Shown here: in pieces, positions 20,614-33,865 of the stretch | How the letters are laid out: every line of letters begins with the position of its first letter | How positions within the stretch are numbered: the first letter of the stretch is position 1 | DNA from: Propioniciclava sinopodophylli | GTDB taxonomy: Bacteria; Actinomycetota; Actinomycetes; Propionibacteriales; Propionibacteriaceae | Length of the DNA: 64,000 nucleotides | Assembly (NCBI RefSeq): GCF_004324755.1 | Contig: NZ_SDMQ01000008.1 | Span: 62,001 to 126,000 of the forward strand | Reading direction: 5' to 3' | The notes under the pieces: generated by a model | Databases searched by the model: none | Told to the model about the DNA's origin: nothing | Seen by the model: only the letters and a program-made list of their open reading frames with translations | Program-made: the position numbers and the translations under genes

Positions 20614-21195
20614 TCAGCGGCCGCCGCGGCCCATTCCCTTGCCGCCCCCGCCCGGGCCGCCGTCGCCAATGACGCCGGCCTCGACGGCCTTCTTGACGGC
20701 GTCGGCCTCGGCCTGGGTGAGCTTGCCGTCGGTGACGGCCTGCTCGAGGCGGTCCTGCAGCGCGGCCGCGCGCTCGGCGTCGCGCTCGCTCTCCAGCGCG
20801 GTGAGTGCTTCGGCGACCTTGGCCTCGTCGACGCCCAGCGCCTTGGCCAGCTCTGCCGCGAGCTCGGCGCGGCGCTCCTCCTGCGTCGGGCGCGTGGTGG
20901 AGTCGTCGGCCTGGCGCGCCTCGCGCAGCGCGTCATGCGCGGTCTGGAGGGCCTCGGACACCTTCGCCTCGTCGAGGCCGAGCTTCTCGGCGAGCTCGGC
21001 GGCCTGCATGCCGCCGCGGTGCTTCTCGCCGGCCTCCCCGCGCCCGCCCTGCTGGGACTGGTCCGCCTGGGGTGTGGTCGTCGTGGGCGCCGCCGTCGGG
21101 TCCGCCGCCTGCGCGAGGCTGGAGATCCCCGCGACACCCCCGAGGGCGAGAGCGGCGGTGCCGAGGGTCAGTCCGACCTTCTGGATGCTGTTCAT
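20614..21195 (-). CDS. Secreted helical-repeat protein with Gly/Arg-rich tail
   Basis: 193 residues; function not recognised. The signal peptide is about residues 1-30, with a likely cut in AQA|ADP. A Thr/Gln/Gly-rich linker leads to two similar helical units, AAELAEKLGLDEAKVSEAL and AAELAKALGVDEAKVAEAL, each followed by a charged helix, and then a third helical unit, QAVTDGKLTQAEADAVKKA. The tail is GGPGGGGKGMGRGGR. The repeats resemble DUF2680/YckD-like folds but that is a guess. Start ATG 21195 has AAAGGAAA upstream; the longer start at 21231 has none. A TTGACA on the minus strand about 70 bases upstream could be its -35. Confidence 0.7.
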   Translation of the reverse strand: MNSIQKVGLTLGTAALALGGVAGISSLAQAADPTAAPTTTTPQADQSQQGGRGEAGEKHRGGMQAAELAEKLGLDEAKVSEALQTAHDALREARQADDSTTRPTQEERRAELAAELAKALGVDEAKVAEALTALESERDAERAAALQDRLEQAVTDGKLTQAEADAVKKAVEAGVIGDGGPGGGGKGMGRGGR

Positions 21196-21290
21196 GGTGT
21201 TTCCTTTCGGTGCTCCTTGCATGATCACCATTCAGCCGCTCGGATCTGTCGAGGGCCTTCGGCGTTCCTGTCAACGCCCTGTGAATGCCC

Positions 21291-21322
21291 GGACGGCCGG
21301 CCCCGGGTGGGGCCGGCCGTCC
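21291..21322 (-). terminator. Terminator after the symporter gene
   Basis: A perfect 14-bp stem: GGACGGCCGGCCCC (21291-21304), loop GGGT, complementary arm 21309-21322. It lies just past the symporter stop on the minus strand and separates it from the secreted helical protein. Confidence 0.7.
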
Positions 21323-21365
21323 GTAGTGGGTCGGCGTACAGCGACGTCGGTGCACGCCAGCATTC

Positions 21366-22988
21366 TCAGTGGGCGATGGCCTCGCCCGCGCCCGCACCGG
21401 TCATGGAGCGGACCTCCATCTCGGCGGCGAGCTCCTGGTCGCCGCGCACCGCGGAGGTGACCGTGCCGATGTAGCCGGCCAGGAAGGCCAGCGGCACCGA
21501 GACGAGCGCCGGGTTCGTGAGCGGGAACCACGCGAAGTTGACCGCCTCGCCCAGCATCGCGGACTTGGAGCCCGAGATGGAGGGGGAGAACAGGATCAGC
21601 ACGACGGAGCTGATCAGGCCGGCATAGATCGACCAGACCGAGCCGCGCGTGTTGAACCGGCGCCAGTACATCGTGTACAGGATGGACGGCAGGTTGGCCG
21701 ATGCCGCCACCGCGAACGCCAGCGAGATCAGGAAGGCGATGTTCTGGCCGTTGGCGAAGATGCCGCCGATGATCGCCAGCACGCCGATGACGACCGACGT
21801 GATGCGGGCGACCTTGACCTCCTGCTCGGGATCGGCCTTGCCGCCCTTGAGGATGGAGTTGTACACGTCATGGGCGAACGAGGCGGACGCCGTGATCGTG
21901 AGGCCGGCGACCACCGCGAGGATCGTCGCGAAGGCGACGCCCGAGATGACGCCCATGAAGATCTCACCACCCAACTCGAGGGCGAGCAGCGGGGCTGCGG
22001 CGTTCGCCCCACCGGGTGCGGCGAGGATCGCGGCCGGGCCGACCAGCTTGGCGGCACCCATGCCGAGCACCAGCGTGATCAGGAAGAACACGCCGATCAG
22101 GGCGATGGCCCAGACGGCGGAGCGACGGGCCTCCTTGGCGGTGGGCACCGTCTAGAAGCGCATGAGAACGTGGGGCAGGCCCGAGGGGCCGGCGACCAGC
22201 GCGATCGACAGCGACAGGAAGGACAGCTTGGTGAACTCCGAGGCTCCGTACTGCTGCATGGGCACCAGGAGGTCCTTGCCGTTGCCGTAGGCAGGGTCGA
22301 GGGCCGCGGTCTGGGCCTGGGCCATCAGCTCCGACAGGTTGAAGCCGTCGCCGAGCAGCACGAGCAGGGCCATGACGGAGGCGCCGCCCACGAGCAGGAC
22401 GGCCTTGATCATCTGCACCCAGGTGGTGCCCTTCATGCCGCCGATGAGGACGTAAGCGACCATCAGCAGGCCGACCAGGGCGATCACGAGCGACTGCATG
22501 TTGCGGTCGGACACGCCGAGCAGCAGGGCCACGAGGCCACCGGCGCCGGCCATCTGGGCCAGCAGGTACACGAACGAGATGACCAGGGTGGAGGTCGCGG
22601 CCGCGGTGCGGACCGGCTTCTGGTTCATGCGGAAGCTGAGGACGTCGGCCATCGTGTACTTGCCGGTGTTGCGCAGCGGCTCGGCCACGAGGAACAGGGC
22701 CACGATCCAGGCCACGAAGAAGCCGACGGAGTAGAGCAGGCCGTCGTAGCCGTAGAGGGCGATGGCGCCCGTCACGCCGAGGAAGGCGGCGGCCGACAGG
22801 TAGTCGCCGGTGATGGCGAGGCCGTTCTGGCGGCCCGAGAAGGCGGCGCCGCCGGTGTAGAAGTCGGTGGCCTTGGACTTCTGGCGCGTCACGACGATGA
22901 CGATGCCCATCGTGGCGACGACGAACAGGGCGAACACCCCGATGTTGATCATCGGGTTGCCGTACTGGGTGGTTTCCAACAGCGTCAT
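21366..22988 (-). pseudogene. Cation:acetate-type symporter (ActP/MctC-like) interrupted by an in-frame amber codon
   Basis: Reads as one 540-codon SSS-family (solute:sodium symporter) frame except for a TAG at 22154-22152. Upstream part: MTLLETTQYG to GPSGLPHVLMRF; downstream, in the same frame, TVPTAKEARRSAVWAI to the end. In this family the junction normally reads LMRF-Y/F-TVPTAKEAR, so a Tyr TAC to TAG single change is the simplest cause. All membrane segments on both sides are intact, with no frameshift or other stop. The downstream part could start at a GTG (22148) but has no SD there. It is either a recent pseudogene, a sequencing error, or a gene read through by suppression. The DUF485 gene upstream overlaps it by four bases (ATGA). 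Confidence 0.8.
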
Positions 22989-23422
22989 GCCTGGACCCCC
23001 TTCTCGAGCTGGGCCTTCAGGGCACCCGACACGGGGTCGAGCTTCTTGGTGGCGAATTTGACGTAGATGAAGGTCCAGGCGTACACGACGGCGAACTGGA
23101 GCAGGCCGATCGTCATGCCGACGCTCAGTGAACCGACCAGCGGGGTCGCCATGAAGTCGACGGCGTAGATCGACAGCAGCACGAAGGTGAAGTAGGACAC
23201 CAGGCCGGCGACCGTCATCGGGAACGCGAAGTTGCGGAACGTCGAGCGCAGATTCAGGTACTCGGCGGTCTTGGAGACGGCGACGAAGGAGTCGGTGGTC
23301 GGCGCCTCGTGCGGCTTCTCGGTGTGGACCAGCTCAGGCAGCGGCCAGTGGTCCTCGGGGAGGTGGAACTCGGTTTCGTCGGCCCAGGGCTTGCCCTGTG
23401 ACTCGTCACGGTCTGGCGACAT
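22985..23422 (-). CDS. DUF485 membrane protein, symporter partner
   Basis: 145 residues. A hydrophilic N-terminus of about 75 residues is followed by two membrane helices (FAFPMTVAGLVSYFTFVLLS and an equally hydrophobic second one), the DUF485 pattern seen beside acetate/pyruvate symporters (YjcH beside ActP). It is probably a small subunit or stabiliser of the symporter. Start ATG 23422 follows GAGGAGCGCCTGC; the longer frame to 23494 lacks support. Stop and symporter start overlap as ATGA, so loss of the symporter would leave this protein without its partner. Confidence 0.8.
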   Translation of the reverse strand: MSPDRDESQGKPWADETEFHLPEDHWPLPELVHTEKPHEAPTTDSFVAVSKTAEYLNLRSTFRNFAFPMTVAGLVSYFTFVLLSIYAVDFMATPLVGSLSVGMTIGLLQFAVVYAWTFIYVKFATKKLDPVSGALKAQLEKGVQA

Positions 23423-23475
23423 GCAGGCGCTCCTCACGCGGCAGTGGGGCCGTCGTTGGCCCCGGTCTTCTCCAG

Positions 23476-23504
23476 AAGGTAAGGCATGGAGCAAAGAATC
23501 TCAA
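23476..23504 (-). promoter_or_regulatory. Promoter of the DUF485-symporter operon
   Basis: On the minus strand TTGAGA (23504-23499) and TACCTT (23481-23476) are separated by exactly 17 bases, one of the most consensus-like promoters in the window. The predicted start is near 23469, leaving a leader of about 47 bases before the DUF485 ATG. Confidence 0.65.
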
Positions 23505-23607: not shown

Positions 23608-23883
23608 GTGCCGATCAGGACGTGTGTGGGGTGCCGGAGGACCGACGACCAGGCCTCGCTCGTGCGCGTGGCCCGCGGGGCCGCGGGCGGGGTCGTGGTG
23701 AGCCGTACCGCACCCGGACGCGGTGCGTGGCTGCACCCCGGGTGCGGGGCCGCCGCGCTGAAGCGCCGGGCGATCCCGCGGGCGCTCCGGTTGCCGGTGA
23801 GTGAGTCGGCGGCGCTGGCCGAGGTCGTCGCGCAGGTCGACGCGCTGGGCCCCGCTTGGGCATTTCGGCCCCCGAGCGACTAG
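23608..23883 (+). CDS. ylxR: YlxR-family RNA-binding protein
   Basis: 91 residues. Family motif RTCVGCRRTDDQASLVRV at the N-terminus and PGRGAWLHPGCGAAALKRRA in the middle; the fold is a small basic RNA-binding domain (DUF448/RnpM), in some bacteria a partner of RNase P or a nucleoid-type regulator. It normally sits between nusA and infB, as here apart from the inserted cassette. GTG 23608 lies six bases after TAGGGT (23596-23601), indicating a leaderless mRNA. Its stop TAG is part of the infB -10 element TAGACT. Confidence 0.9.
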   Translation: MPIRTCVGCRRTDDQASLVRVARGAAGGVVVSRTAPGRGAWLHPGCGAAALKRRAIPRALRLPVSESAALAEVVAQVDALGPAWAFRPPSD

Positions 23884-24021
23884 ACTATTTGACGCGCTTC
23901 GCGCAGCTCGTGCGCGAACACAACCAGAAGGTGGGCTAACGCTCATGACCACTCGATGAGTTCCCAGAAATGAGCATCAACAACTAACTGGCCTGCGCAC
24001 TCGCGGGCCTGAAGGAGAGTA
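23881..24021 (+). promoter_or_regulatory. infB promoter and leader with three overlapping mini-ORFs and an SD-proximal hairpin
   Basis: TAGACT (23881-23886) is the likely -10. The leader has a hairpin TTCGCGCA-gctcg-TGCGCGAA (about 23898-23918), then three mini-ORFs: MTTR (23945-23959), MSSQK (23956-23973) and MSINN (23970-23987). Each stop overlaps the next start as ATGA. Next is a second hairpin, GGCCTGCG (23990-23997) with CGCGGGCC (24002-24009), and immediately the SD GAAGGAG (24011-24017) before the infB GTG. I recall a similar series of ATGAGT-type mini-ORFs and a hairpin before Streptomyces infB; that is memory, not a search. It could make IF2 synthesis depend on initiation or re-initiation efficiency. 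Confidence 0.6.
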
Positions 24022-26991
24022 GTGGCCAAGGTCCGCGTCTACGAACTCGCGAAAGAGTTCGGACTCGAAAGCAAGGATGTCCTCAAGACACTCCAGGACA
24101 TGGGCGAGTACGTCCGGTCCGCATCATCCACGATCGAGCCGCCGGTTGTCCGGCGGCTGACCGAGAAGCTCAAGGGCGGCCAGTCCGGCAAGCCCGCCCC
24201 CGGCGCGCCCGCTCCCGCGGCGCCTGCCACGAAGCCCGCGGCCCCCGCCGCAGGTTCGCCGCGTCCCGGCGCCCCCGGCCCGCGCCCCGGCGCACCGCGT
24301 CCGGCCGCCCCGCAGCCAGCCGCCCCCGCCGCCCAGTCGCCGGCCCCGGCTCCCGCCGAGGCGATCCCGGCCCCGGTTCCCGCAGAGGCGGCTCCGGCCC
24401 CGCAGGCACCGGCCCAGCCGGCCGCGCCCGCGGCGTCCGCCGCACCGCAGGCCCCGGAGCAGCGTCCGGCAGCCCCCGCTGCCCGTCCCGGTGCCCCGGC
24501 GCCCCGCCCCAGCGCCCAGGCCCCCGCGCCCGCGCCCGCGCCGCGTCCGGGTGCTCCGGCCCCCCGTCCCGGCGCCGCGGCTCCCCGGCCTGGTGCCCCC
24601 GGCCCCCGTCCGGGCGGTTCGGGCGGCCTGCCCGGCAACCGTCCCGGTCGTCCGTCCGGCGCCCCGCGCCCGGGCAACAACCCCTTCGCACCCAGCCAGG
24701 GCATGGGCGTCCGTCGCCCGCGTCCCGAGGGCCCCGGCGGCGCACCGCGTCCCGGTGCGCCGGGTGCGGCGGGTCGTCCCGGCCCCCGCCCCGGTGGCGA
24801 GGGTGCCCCGCGCATGCCGCGTCCGGGTGGCACGGGCGGACTGCCCGGCATGCCGCGCCCGAACCCGGCTATGATGCCCAAGCAGGTCTCCAACCAGCTC
24901 AGCCCCGCGGGTGCCCGCGCGGGTCGCCCCGGTGGCGGCCCCGGCGGCCCCGGCCGCGGTCGCCCCGGCGGTGCCGGTGGCGGTCGTCCGGGCATGGGCG
25001 GCGGCCCCTCGACGGGCCCGATCGGTGGCGGCGGTGGCCGCGGCCGTGGCGGTCGCGCCGGTGGTGGCACCCAGGGTGCGTTCGGCCGTGGCGGTGGCCC
25101 GGCCCGGCGCGGACGGAAGAGCAAGAAGGCGCGTCGCGCAGAGTTCGACCAGATGGAGGCCCCGACGATCGGTGGCGTGCGGATCCGCAGCGGTGAGGGC
25201 CAGAAGGTCCGCCTCCGTCGCGGAGCGTCGCTGACCGACCTGGCCGAGAAGATCGGCGTCGAGCCGGCATCGCTGGTGCAGGTGCTGTTCCACCTGGGCG
25301 AGATGGTCAACGCCACCCAGTCGGTGGCCGACGACACCCTCCAGGTGCTGGGCGCGGAGTTGAACTACACCATCGAGGTCGTCTCCCCCGAGGACGAGGA
25401 CCGCGAACTGCTCGAGTCGTTCGACATCGAGTTCGGCGAGGACTTCGGCGACGAGGACGACCTCGAGTCGCGCCCGCCGGTGGTCACCGTCATGGGCCAC
25501 GTCGACCACGGCAAGACGAAGCTGCTGGACGCGCTGCGCCACGCCAACGTGGTGGCCGGCGAGGCCGGTGGCATCACGCAGGCCATCGGTGCCTACCAGG
25601 TCGCCACCGAGATCGGTGACGTCGAGCGTCGCATCACCTTCATCGACACCCCGGGCCACGAGGCGTTCACCGCCATGCGTGCCCGTGGCGCCAAGTCGAC
25701 CGACATCGCCATCCTCGTGGTCGCGGCCGACGACGGCGTGATGCCCCAGACGATCGAGGCGCTGAACCACGCGAAGGCGGCCGACGTGCCGATCGTGGTC
25801 GCGGTCAACAAGGTCGACAAGGAGACCGCCGACCCCGTCAAGGTGCGCGGCGAGATGACCGAGTACGGCCTGATCCCCGAGGAGTACGGCGGCGACACGA
25901 TGTTCGTCGACGTCTCGGCGGTCACGCACCAGGGCCTGGACAACCTGCTCGAGGCCATCGTGCTGACGGCGGACGCCGCCCTCGACCTGCGCGCCAACCC
26001 GGACATGCCCGCCCAGGGTGTGGCCATCGAGGCGCACCTCGACAAGGGCCGCGGCCCCGTGGCCACCGTCCTGGTGCACCGCGGCACGCTGAGGACCGGA
26101 GACTCGATCGTCGCCGGCTCCGCCCACGGCCGCGTCCGCGCGATGATCACCGACACCGGCGAGACCGTCGACGAGGCCCCGCCCTCGATGCCGGTGCAGG
26201 TGCTCGGCCTGACCTCCGTGCCGGGGGCCGGCGACAACTTCCTGGTCGTCGAGGACGACCGGATGGCCCGCCAGATCGCCGACAAGCGCGAGGCCCGCCA
26301 GCGTGCGGCCTTCCTGGCCAAGACGACGCGCCGCAAGACCCTCGACCAGCTGTTCGAGCAGATCGAGAAGGGCGAGACCCAAGAGCTCAAGCTCATCCTC
26401 AAGGGCGACTCGGCCGGTTCGGTCGAGGCGCTGGAGGACTCGCTGGCCCAGATCGACGTCGGCGACGAGGTGTCGCTGCGCGTCATCGACCGCGGTGTCG
26501 GTGCCATCACCGAGACGAACGTTTCGCTGGCCGCGGCGTCCGACGCCGTCATCATCGGCTACAACGTCCGCCCGCAGGGCAAGGCGACGCAGCTGGCCGA
26601 CTCCGAGGGCGTCGACATCCGCTACTACTCGGTCATCTACGCGGCGATCGACGACGTGGAGGCCGCCCTCAAGGGTCTGCTCAAGCCGATCTTCGAGGAG
26701 AAGACGATGGGTCAGGCGGAGATCCGCGAGATCTTCCGCAGCTCGAAGTTCGGCACGATCGCCGGCTGCATGGTGCTCGATGGTCACATCAAGCGCAATG
26801 CGAAGGCGCGTCTGCTCCGCGACGGCGTGGTCGTCACGGAGACCTCGATCGCGTCGCTGCGGCGCGAGAAGGACGACGTCACCGATGTCCGCGAGGGTTA
26901 CGAGTGTGGTCTCACGCTCCACAACTACAACGACATCAGGAACGGCGACATCGTCGAGACCTACGAGATGCTGGAAAAGCCGCGCGACTGA
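24022..26991 (+). CDS. infB: Translation initiation factor IF-2
   Basis: 989 residues. GTPase that brings fMet-tRNA to the 30S subunit and drives subunit joining. The N-terminal IF2N domain ([20 protein letters not shown]) is followed by about 330 residues that are Pro/Ala-rich and then Gly/Arg-rich ([13 protein letters not shown]). A second IF2N-like part lies around residues 390-460. The GTPase P-loop GHVDHGKT is at 492-499, with [11 protein letters not shown] and NKVDK following. Domains II-IV end in [11 protein letters not shown]. Start GTG 24022 follows a clear SD. The long low-complexity N-terminus is usual for actinobacteria. Confidence 0.97.
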
Positions 26992-33692: not shown

Positions 33693-33865
33693 TAGCCTGA
33701 ACACCACAACTGAACACATGTCCACCGCTGCACCTGGCCCGCGCTATTCGGTCCTCGGTAGTGGCCTCCGGGGCGACAAGCGTCCCGTGGGCCTCGATCG
33801 AAGACCGAAACCCTACGAATGAGTGGCCGGAGCTCAGGTGTTGCACGCTTGAAAGGAAATACTCC
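33693..33865 (+). ncRNA. pnp promoter and structured leader (Actino-pnp motif candidate)
   Basis: TAGCCT at 33693-33698 is a likely -10, giving a leader of about 160 bases. It holds a long nested hairpin: TTCGGTC 33747-33753 with GACCGAA 33803-33809, TCG/CGA, GGCC 33763-33766 with GGCC 33790-33793, and GGGGCG 33770-33775 with CGTCCC 33781-33786 around a five-base loop. A structured element called Actino-pnp is known upstream of actinobacterial exoribonuclease genes; position and fold fit. A plausible job is feedback control of pnp mRNA. Confidence 0.65.

Follow-up and report, generated by a model that had tools for sequence, protein, structure and literature searches.

Why should the gene for a translation initiation factor be preceded by three minimal open reading frames, each ending where the next begins? 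The question is raised by the infB leader of the 64-kb stretch of DNA analysed here (the window). A first-pass annotation had described mini-ORFs encoding MTTR, MSSQK and MSINN joined by ATGA overlaps, with a hairpin touching the Shine-Dalgarno (SD) sequence of infB, and had proposed that ribosome flow through the frames could switch the gene. To our knowledge, the control of IF2 levels in bacteria is largely an open question, and an element of an essential gene in nearly every sampled Actinomycetes species makes this question directly testable.

Organization of the window leader

Direct reading confirmed the three mini-ORFs base by base, and the claim made for them turned out to be understated. 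The features of the region are as follows:

23608..23883, + strand: presumed ylxR (DUF448-like), from the ORF list, upstream of infB; its stop overlaps the TAGACT hexamer
23881..23886, + strand: TAGACT, weak candidate -10 box of the infB leader transcript, seen by eye; similar hexamers in L002-L006 and L057
23898..23918, + strand: 8-bp perfect hairpin TTCGCGCA-GCTCG-TGCGCGAA near the 5' end of the leader, from sequence and fold
23928..23934, + strand: AAGGTGG, SD-like sequence of mini-ORF 1; anti-SD duplex -9.1 kcal/mol
23945..23959, + strand: mini-ORF 1, MTTR and stop (ATG ACC ACT CGA TGA), direct reading
23956..23973, + strand: mini-ORF 2, MSSQK and stop (ATG AGT TCC CAG AAA TGA); start shares ATGA with the stop of mini-ORF 1
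23970..23987, + strand: mini-ORF 3, MSINN and stop (ATG AGC ATC AAC AAC TAA); start shares ATGA with the stop of mini-ORF 2
23990..24009, + strand: hairpin P2, with 5' arm GGCCTGCG (23990-23997), loop (23998-24001) and 3' arm CGCGGGCC (24002-24009); -15.4 kcal/mol
24002..24037, + strand: alternative hairpin P3, CGCGGGCCT (24002-24010) pairing with AGGTCCGCG (24029-24037); -16.8 kcal/mol
24012..24017, + strand: AAGGAG, SD of infB, 2 nt after P2; anti-SD duplex -9.5 kcal/mol
24022..26991, + strand: infB, translation initiation factor IF2, GTG start at 24022, from the ORF list

We take 23608..23883 to be ylxR from the known order of the nusA-ylxR-infB operon, and the infB product to be IF2. The 8-bp hairpin was seen by eye in close relatives only. 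Mini-ORFs 2 and 3 have no SD in the window (anti-SD duplexes of -0.6 and -2.2 kcal/mol, respectively), and P2 begins 2 nt after the stop of mini-ORF 3. The hairpin of the first-pass annotation is thus real and very close to the infB SD, but the SD does not lie inside it. P3 consists of 9 bp including one G-U, has infB codons 3-6 as its 3' side and carries the infB SD and GTG in its 18-nt loop (24011-24028); the synonymous base 24036 (C) lies opposite 24003 (G).

No other chain of three is formed by ATG codons on either strand of the window. Folded as a whole, the 151-nt leader has an unremarkable minimum energy (z -1.19), so the evidence presented below is comparative. No intrinsic terminator, as expected of a transcription attenuator, was found in 23700-24100, and a sigma-70 consensus scan found no promoter at the infB leader. 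A nusA-like gene (to 20535) and ylxR-infB (names by eye) are separated by minus-strand open frames at 20614-23494, so that a separate promoter is probable for ylxR-infB here. Within the same region, a minus-strand symporter-like gene (21366-22988, by eye) lies in two open frames split near 22150 and is either a broken gene or the result of a sequencing error. Rfam 15 gave no match at gathering score at the leader and none at E ≤1 in 23860-24120; the sole gathering-score match in the window is an Actino-pnp RNA (RF01688, 74.7 bits) at 33747-33809.

Conservation of the mini-ORF chain

The first-pass annotation had pointed to a comparable layout before Streptomyces infB and suspected wide conservation in actinobacteria. 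Using the N-terminus of IF2 (first 52 residues), infB was located in 136 of 148 genomes of the class Actinomycetes and in 324 of 396 genomes of the phylum; the leaders of all 136 class genomes were compared with 28 from other classes, a small part of those available. With frames of at most 8 residues, the rule of the main count, 130 of the 136 class leaders (window included) have at least three coupled mini-ORFs upstream of infB, against none of the 28 other-class leaders, one of which (L251) has no well-placed infB start (score -4). The suspicion was therefore correct in that the layout is kept throughout the class Actinomycetes. Three of the six class leaders below three (L106, L199 and L216) reach that number with frames of up to 13 residues, under which rule 133 of 136 have at least three; L110 and L179 have two and L219 has none, and no clear chain is present in L308 either. 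One outgroup leader, L247, has three joined GTG frames once GTG/TTG starts and frames of up to 22 residues are allowed.

Such chains are rare in randomized sequence. First-order Markov versions of the 136 class leaders had at least three coupled frames in about 0.6% of cases (ATG/GTG starts), and with ATG starts only the figures were 109 of 136 observed leaders versus 0.07% of Markov versions. Under the 8-residue rule the chain was also found in 79 of 80 further named loci, the best among 245 confirmed on GTDB contigs; the exception, L072, seemingly has its chain further upstream. Under the looser rule (up to 13 residues), it was found in 57 of 60 held-out leaders, which were hand-picked among the best-matching places (E ≤1e-14) and so lean to IF2s like that of the window. 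Among 21 relatives, 18 have a single copy of the spaced pattern ATGA-N7-ATGA-N10-ATGA in the genome, and the backward control was absent from all; four of the five matches fetched were infB leaders, and L255 was not. A strict pattern with AGGAG found 6 matches in the 396 phylum genomes, all in the class, a lower bound given the spacing limits. We conclude that the chain is real, conserved and not ordinary.

Examples of chains, each frame being closed by a stop codon, are i) MSTR, MSTR and MSTPMK (Streptomyces-like), ii) MSTP, a GTG-started KSRR and MTMRRS (mycobacteria-like, both labels being inferred from sequence), and iii) MKLK, MSSFTS and MRSNN (AT-rich genomes of 1.3 Mb). Four-unit chains are present in some genomes, e.g. 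Cellulomonas L070 and L079.

Frames, overlaps and Shine-Dalgarno pattern

The chain was dissected in 105 representatives less than 90% alike, loci with the last stop outside 25–75 nt of infB having been dropped first (L072 and L219 gave no chain). Unit 1 has 4 residues in 85/104, unit 2 has 5 in 91/104 and unit 3 has 6 in 59/104. The units are joined mainly by ATGA (206 overlaps), as the annotation had it, and otherwise by GTGA (10), TGATG (6) or TAATG (3). TGA is the stop in 222 of 225 chain-internal cases, and the last stop is TAA in 45, TAG in 40 and TGA in 20 of the 105 representatives. In all 105, the last stop lies 0–7 nt upstream of the predicted P2 stem. In one group of leaders (L150, L160, L173, L174, L182-L185 and L191), unit 1 has ACG instead of ATG, with an in-frame GTG nine bases upstream and AAGGAG before that GTG. 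By this comparison, what is conserved is the set of frames, while the sequence varies. The encoded peptides (MSTR, MSTQR etc.) vary likewise and have no single-residue run; neither an arrest peptide nor a run of regulatory codons was found in them.

Anti-SD energies were -8.2 kcal/mol for unit 1 (shuffled windows -6.6), -3.2 for unit 2 (-4.2), -2.2 for unit 3 (-2.7) and -9.3 for infB (-6.9), with values of -5 or lower in 97, 18, 2 and 102 of 104 leaders, respectively. The presence of an SD at unit 1 and infB and its absence at units 2 and 3 suggest that ribosomes load at the former pair, and that units 2 and 3 need coupling; the absence is consistent with a second start that depends on translation of the first. 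Stop and start overlap between the mini-ORFs, as in termination-reinitiation, and not between mini-ORF 3 and infB. The earlier reading of the chain as successive termination and re-initiation events can be accepted, since these frames would force both.

Hairpin P2

The energy of P2 averages -17.6 kcal/mol, and 95 of 105 representatives have a z below -1.5. Its loops are too diverse for alignment, and MAFFT with RNAalifold across all P2 regions accordingly gave no structure; the arms were compared in register instead. Matched arms score 18.06 versus 14.52 when swapped between lineages (sd 0.29, n=101, z 12), the pairing being kept by compensatory changes. The span of P2 is variable (28.0, sd 7.6), but the remaining distance from stop to SD is far less so (7.1, sd 2.8).

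The proposal that P2 controls infB by opening and closing did not hold as stated. Opening of the SD alone costs a median of 1.5 kcal/mol, so P2 does not mask it, and there is no consistent change with a ribosome on the last stop (cost up by more than 1 kcal/mol in 17/105, down in 8/105); P2 as a direct SD mask was rejected.

Alternative hairpin P3

A predicted two-way hairpin switch was nevertheless found, between P2 and P3, the latter having been missed in the first-pass annotation. In the comparison and in folding, the two hairpins are mutually exclusive, sharing the arm 24002-24009 in the window, and P3 encloses the start of the gene. The pairing score of the P2 3' arm with the infB start is 20.1 when matched, 16.8 when swapped (0/300 as high) and 12.0 with a shuffled code (n=103). 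At least 7 contiguous P3 pairs at infB codons 3-6 are present in 76/105 representatives and 89/135 class leaders, versus 12% with codons shuffled.

The key test concerns codon 5 of infB, an arginine CGN whose third base is free as far as the protein is concerned. The test could be applied to 72 of the 105 representatives, since 30 have other codons and 3 lack an arm of the expected form. The synonymous base pairs with the facing arm base in 68 of the 72 (43.8 expected, 0/10000 permutations, a figure that overstates independence as the species are related). Among 33 infB positions tested, codon 5 has an excess of 24.3, followed by codon 12 with 7.5, perhaps a lineage effect, and all others with 2.1 or less. 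C-G replaces G-C in Propionibacteriaceae, Citricoccus, Cellulomonas, Rarobacter and four further families. The arm base has no partner within P2 in 31 cases, and in 30 of these it still pairs in P3 (26.3 expected, 16/10000). Held-out leaders gave 33/36 (0/10000), or 20/22 (9/10000) without leaders 95% like the first set; the three mismatches include L271, of the window's own family.

The energies of the two hairpins are close (means of -17.6 kcal/mol for P2 and -19.4 for P3). P3 is the more stable in 71/105 and P2 in 34/105, so an open default state is not assured. P3 at codons 3-6 was not found by the contiguous-pair count in 29/105, of which L114 and L169 show pairing by fit score. Since some of the 29, including mycobacteria-like leaders, keep the chain and P2, P3 is not the whole function there. 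On comparative evidence, the chain, its frames, the SD pattern and P2 are established, as is P3 in most representatives; the frames, the SD pattern and, in most, the two alternative helices appear to be under selection.

Modelling of the proposed switch

For the infB initiation footprint (-13 to +19), the energy needed for opening was calculated with a ribosome modelled as 27 nt covered at each stop. Mean costs were 12.5 kcal/mol for the free leader and 12.3, 12.0 and 17.3 with a ribosome on stops 1, 2 and 3, a rise of at least 2 kcal/mol occurring in 7/104, 7/104 and 82/104, respectively; codon-shuffled controls (mean of 8 shuffles each) gave a stop-3 rise in 28/105. Of 44 held-out leaders, 0, 1 and 30 rose at stops 1, 2 and 3 (control 10). 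In most of the modelled leaders, then, infB is predicted to be closed by a ribosome on stop 3 and not by one on stop 1 or 2, and ribosome position is calculated to switch P2 and P3. The calculation thereby supports the suggestion that ribosome flow could switch infB, although the change is weak in the window itself (14.1 free; 13.6, 12.1 and 14.6 at stops 1, 2 and 3) because the free leader makes long-range pairing there; with a ribosome on stop 3, the window leader folds as P3.

Some lineages depart from this pattern. The mycobacteria-like L098 and L106 have the chain and P2 without P3, and the calculation is reversed (-3.5 and -1.5). Related genera (L102, L103, L104 and L203) have no P3 at that place, yet the cost rises by 3.2 to 7.8; another family (L207, L210, L212 and L213), also without P3 at codons 3-6, rises by 2.0 to 6.6. 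In L208 and L209, the last stop is 17–18 nt from infB and there is no room for P2.

Proposed mechanism and alternatives

We propose, with about an even chance of being right, that the leader attenuates infB at the level of translation, counting initiations in succession and repressing IF2 at high initiation capacity. Ribosomes would load at mini-ORF 1 by its SD. As its stop overlaps the SD-less start of mini-ORF 2, and likewise onward, only ribosomes re-initiating twice would arrive at the end of mini-ORF 3. Termination at this point would place a ribosome over the 5' arm of P2 and release the 3' arm to pair with infB codons 3-6; the resulting P3 would trap the SD and start in its loop, turning infB off. 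At low initiation capacity (IF2 among others), ribosomes would drop out earlier, P2 would form and infB would be on. The outcome would be negative feedback, steep with re-initiation efficiency: flux through the chain would go as a power of that efficiency, giving a steep set-point for initiation capacity. With P3 often the stabler, the open state would presumably rest on P2 forming first during transcription. The mini-ORFs are presumably translated in vivo, repression is the probable sign of control, and the identity of the gene suggests that the level of IF2 is what is sensed. That infB has a strong, mostly open SD of its own counts against attenuation. The full form of the proposal, a class-wide autogenous IF2 sensor in which three initiations in a row, two of them SD-less, flip P2 and P3 and shut IF2 synthesis, is put forward tentatively, at somewhat below an even chance.

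The chain could instead act constitutively as a relay or 'antenna', capturing ribosomes and passing them to infB by termination-reinitiation over a folded P2, which would bridge the last stop to the infB SD, comparable to the ribosome shunt of some plant viruses, and so raise IF2 synthesis. Folding of P2 does bring the two to within 7.1 nt (sd 2.8), versus 35.2 nt (sd 7.7) along the sequence. Re-initiation at AUGA has been demonstrated for ppe2 in mycobacteria (PMC11260477), and Korolev et al. (2016) propose leader genes in Actinobacteria as antennas raising expression through re-initiation (PMC4833913). However, the distance peak given there is 10–11 nt (PMC4833913), infB has its own strong SD 33–72 nt past the last stop, and the tracking of a synonymous infB base by the P2 3' arm is left unexplained, so we consider this explanation unlikely. 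A trans-acting protein (IF2, NusA or a ribosomal protein) binding P2 or P3, with the mini-ORFs merely keeping the leader translated, would account for the recurrence of the stem GGUCCG/CGGACC in P2 of many lineages. The stem differs in other lineages, though, while frames and spacing are constant, and the conserved infB codons required for P3 account for its conservation; this explanation seems very improbable.

Ribosome arrest or loss within the chain, rather than the level of IF2, might also spare P2 and turn infB on under stress, the triggers being antibiotics, a shortage of release or recycling factors, or a CGA codon before the stop. CGA precedes the ATGA overlap in 144 of 192 cases (23954-23959 in the window, and relatives), versus CG before 40 of the 130 ATGA sites that the + strand of the window contains, and TGA prevails among the chain-internal stops. 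The SigR targets listed for Streptomyces include infB (PMC5472188), and a WhiB7 ChIP peak lies upstream of infB in M. abscessus (PMC10727445), both also consistent with a promoter just before the leader. On the other hand, the ATGA overlap itself imposes TGA and an A at the end of the preceding codon, and the peptides are variable, with no run of one amino acid. We regard stress-induced attenuation as quite unlikely, and continue with the counting of initiations as the preferred reading.

Relation to known systems

By kind, the element would be a translational attenuator, in a new form. The translational attenuators ermC and cat have two hairpins, and translation of a leader ORF determines whether the one containing the SD and start codon forms, as it would in the infB leader by calculation. 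Unlike these, the infB leader consists of three chained ORFs, the last two without SD and with no evident arrest peptide, and a ribosome that completes the chain would shut the gene rather than open it. Autogenous control of RF2 by the prfB frameshift is a well-known case of a translation-factor mRNA that tests the factor's own step, and the non-canonical start of infC in IF3 autogenous control is another (PMC5472188). The infB leader is proposed to do likewise, but its step would be repeated initiation, read by an RNA switch, with a putative dependence on IF2. It would thereby add the counting of repeated re-initiations to the known mRNA measures of translation, and it shows selection on mini-ORFs of 4–6 codons, which gene finders ignore.

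Termination-reinitiation at an AUGA overlap is described for the ppe2 uORF of mycobacteria (PMC11260477), and 'coupled' RTGA small ORFs are described in mycobacteria (PMC4633059). They share with the infB chain four bases common to stop and start, and a second start without SD; they have a single overlap from uORF to gene, whereas the infB overlaps join three mini-ORFs to one another and not to the gene. The leader genes of PMC4833913 are likewise short ORFs before genes of the same phylum for which re-initiation is proposed, but only the longest ORF of each gene is retained there, and infB is absent from the main text. The E. coli infB study deals with promoters, mRNA stability and cold bias, and a word search of it found no uORF. 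As the first-pass annotation had supposed, no named element corresponding to the leader was found in Rfam or in the open-access papers searched, which gave neither a description of the infB chain nor an IF2 sensor of this kind.

Further features of the leaders

In Nonomuraea-type leaders (L015-L020, L113 and L117-L119), an extra TTG-started frame ends at the start of mini-ORF 1, and the junction after mini-ORF 1 is TGATG in place of ATGA. The CGA before the ATGA overlap is commoner than codon usage or the ATGA sites of the window suggest, and may have a role in termination or re-initiation. A candidate stem, P0, surrounding the start codon of mini-ORF 1 (TCGAG/CTCGA or CGGGT/ACCCG by lineage) scored 11.4 matched versus 10.9 swapped in 84 representatives (1/200 swaps as high); it is absent from many lineages and is not claimed.

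Pairing of the P2 loop with the infB SD scored 7.05 versus 6.06 (1/200) and is strong in 16/102, including Cellulomonas, Pedococcus and Rarobacter; by this comparison it is a lineage-restricted extra. Complementary loops were seen in L067, L070, L074, L078, L081, L093 and L094, for example CTCCTGTC/GACAGGAG in L074 and CTTCATCT/AGATGAAG in L078, and may form a pseudoknot. In small AT-rich genomes (L157-L159, L161, L167 and L168), GGATGCGA upstream of mini-ORF 1 is, by eye, complementary to TCGCATCC in the P2 5' arm, for which it is a possible third pairing partner.
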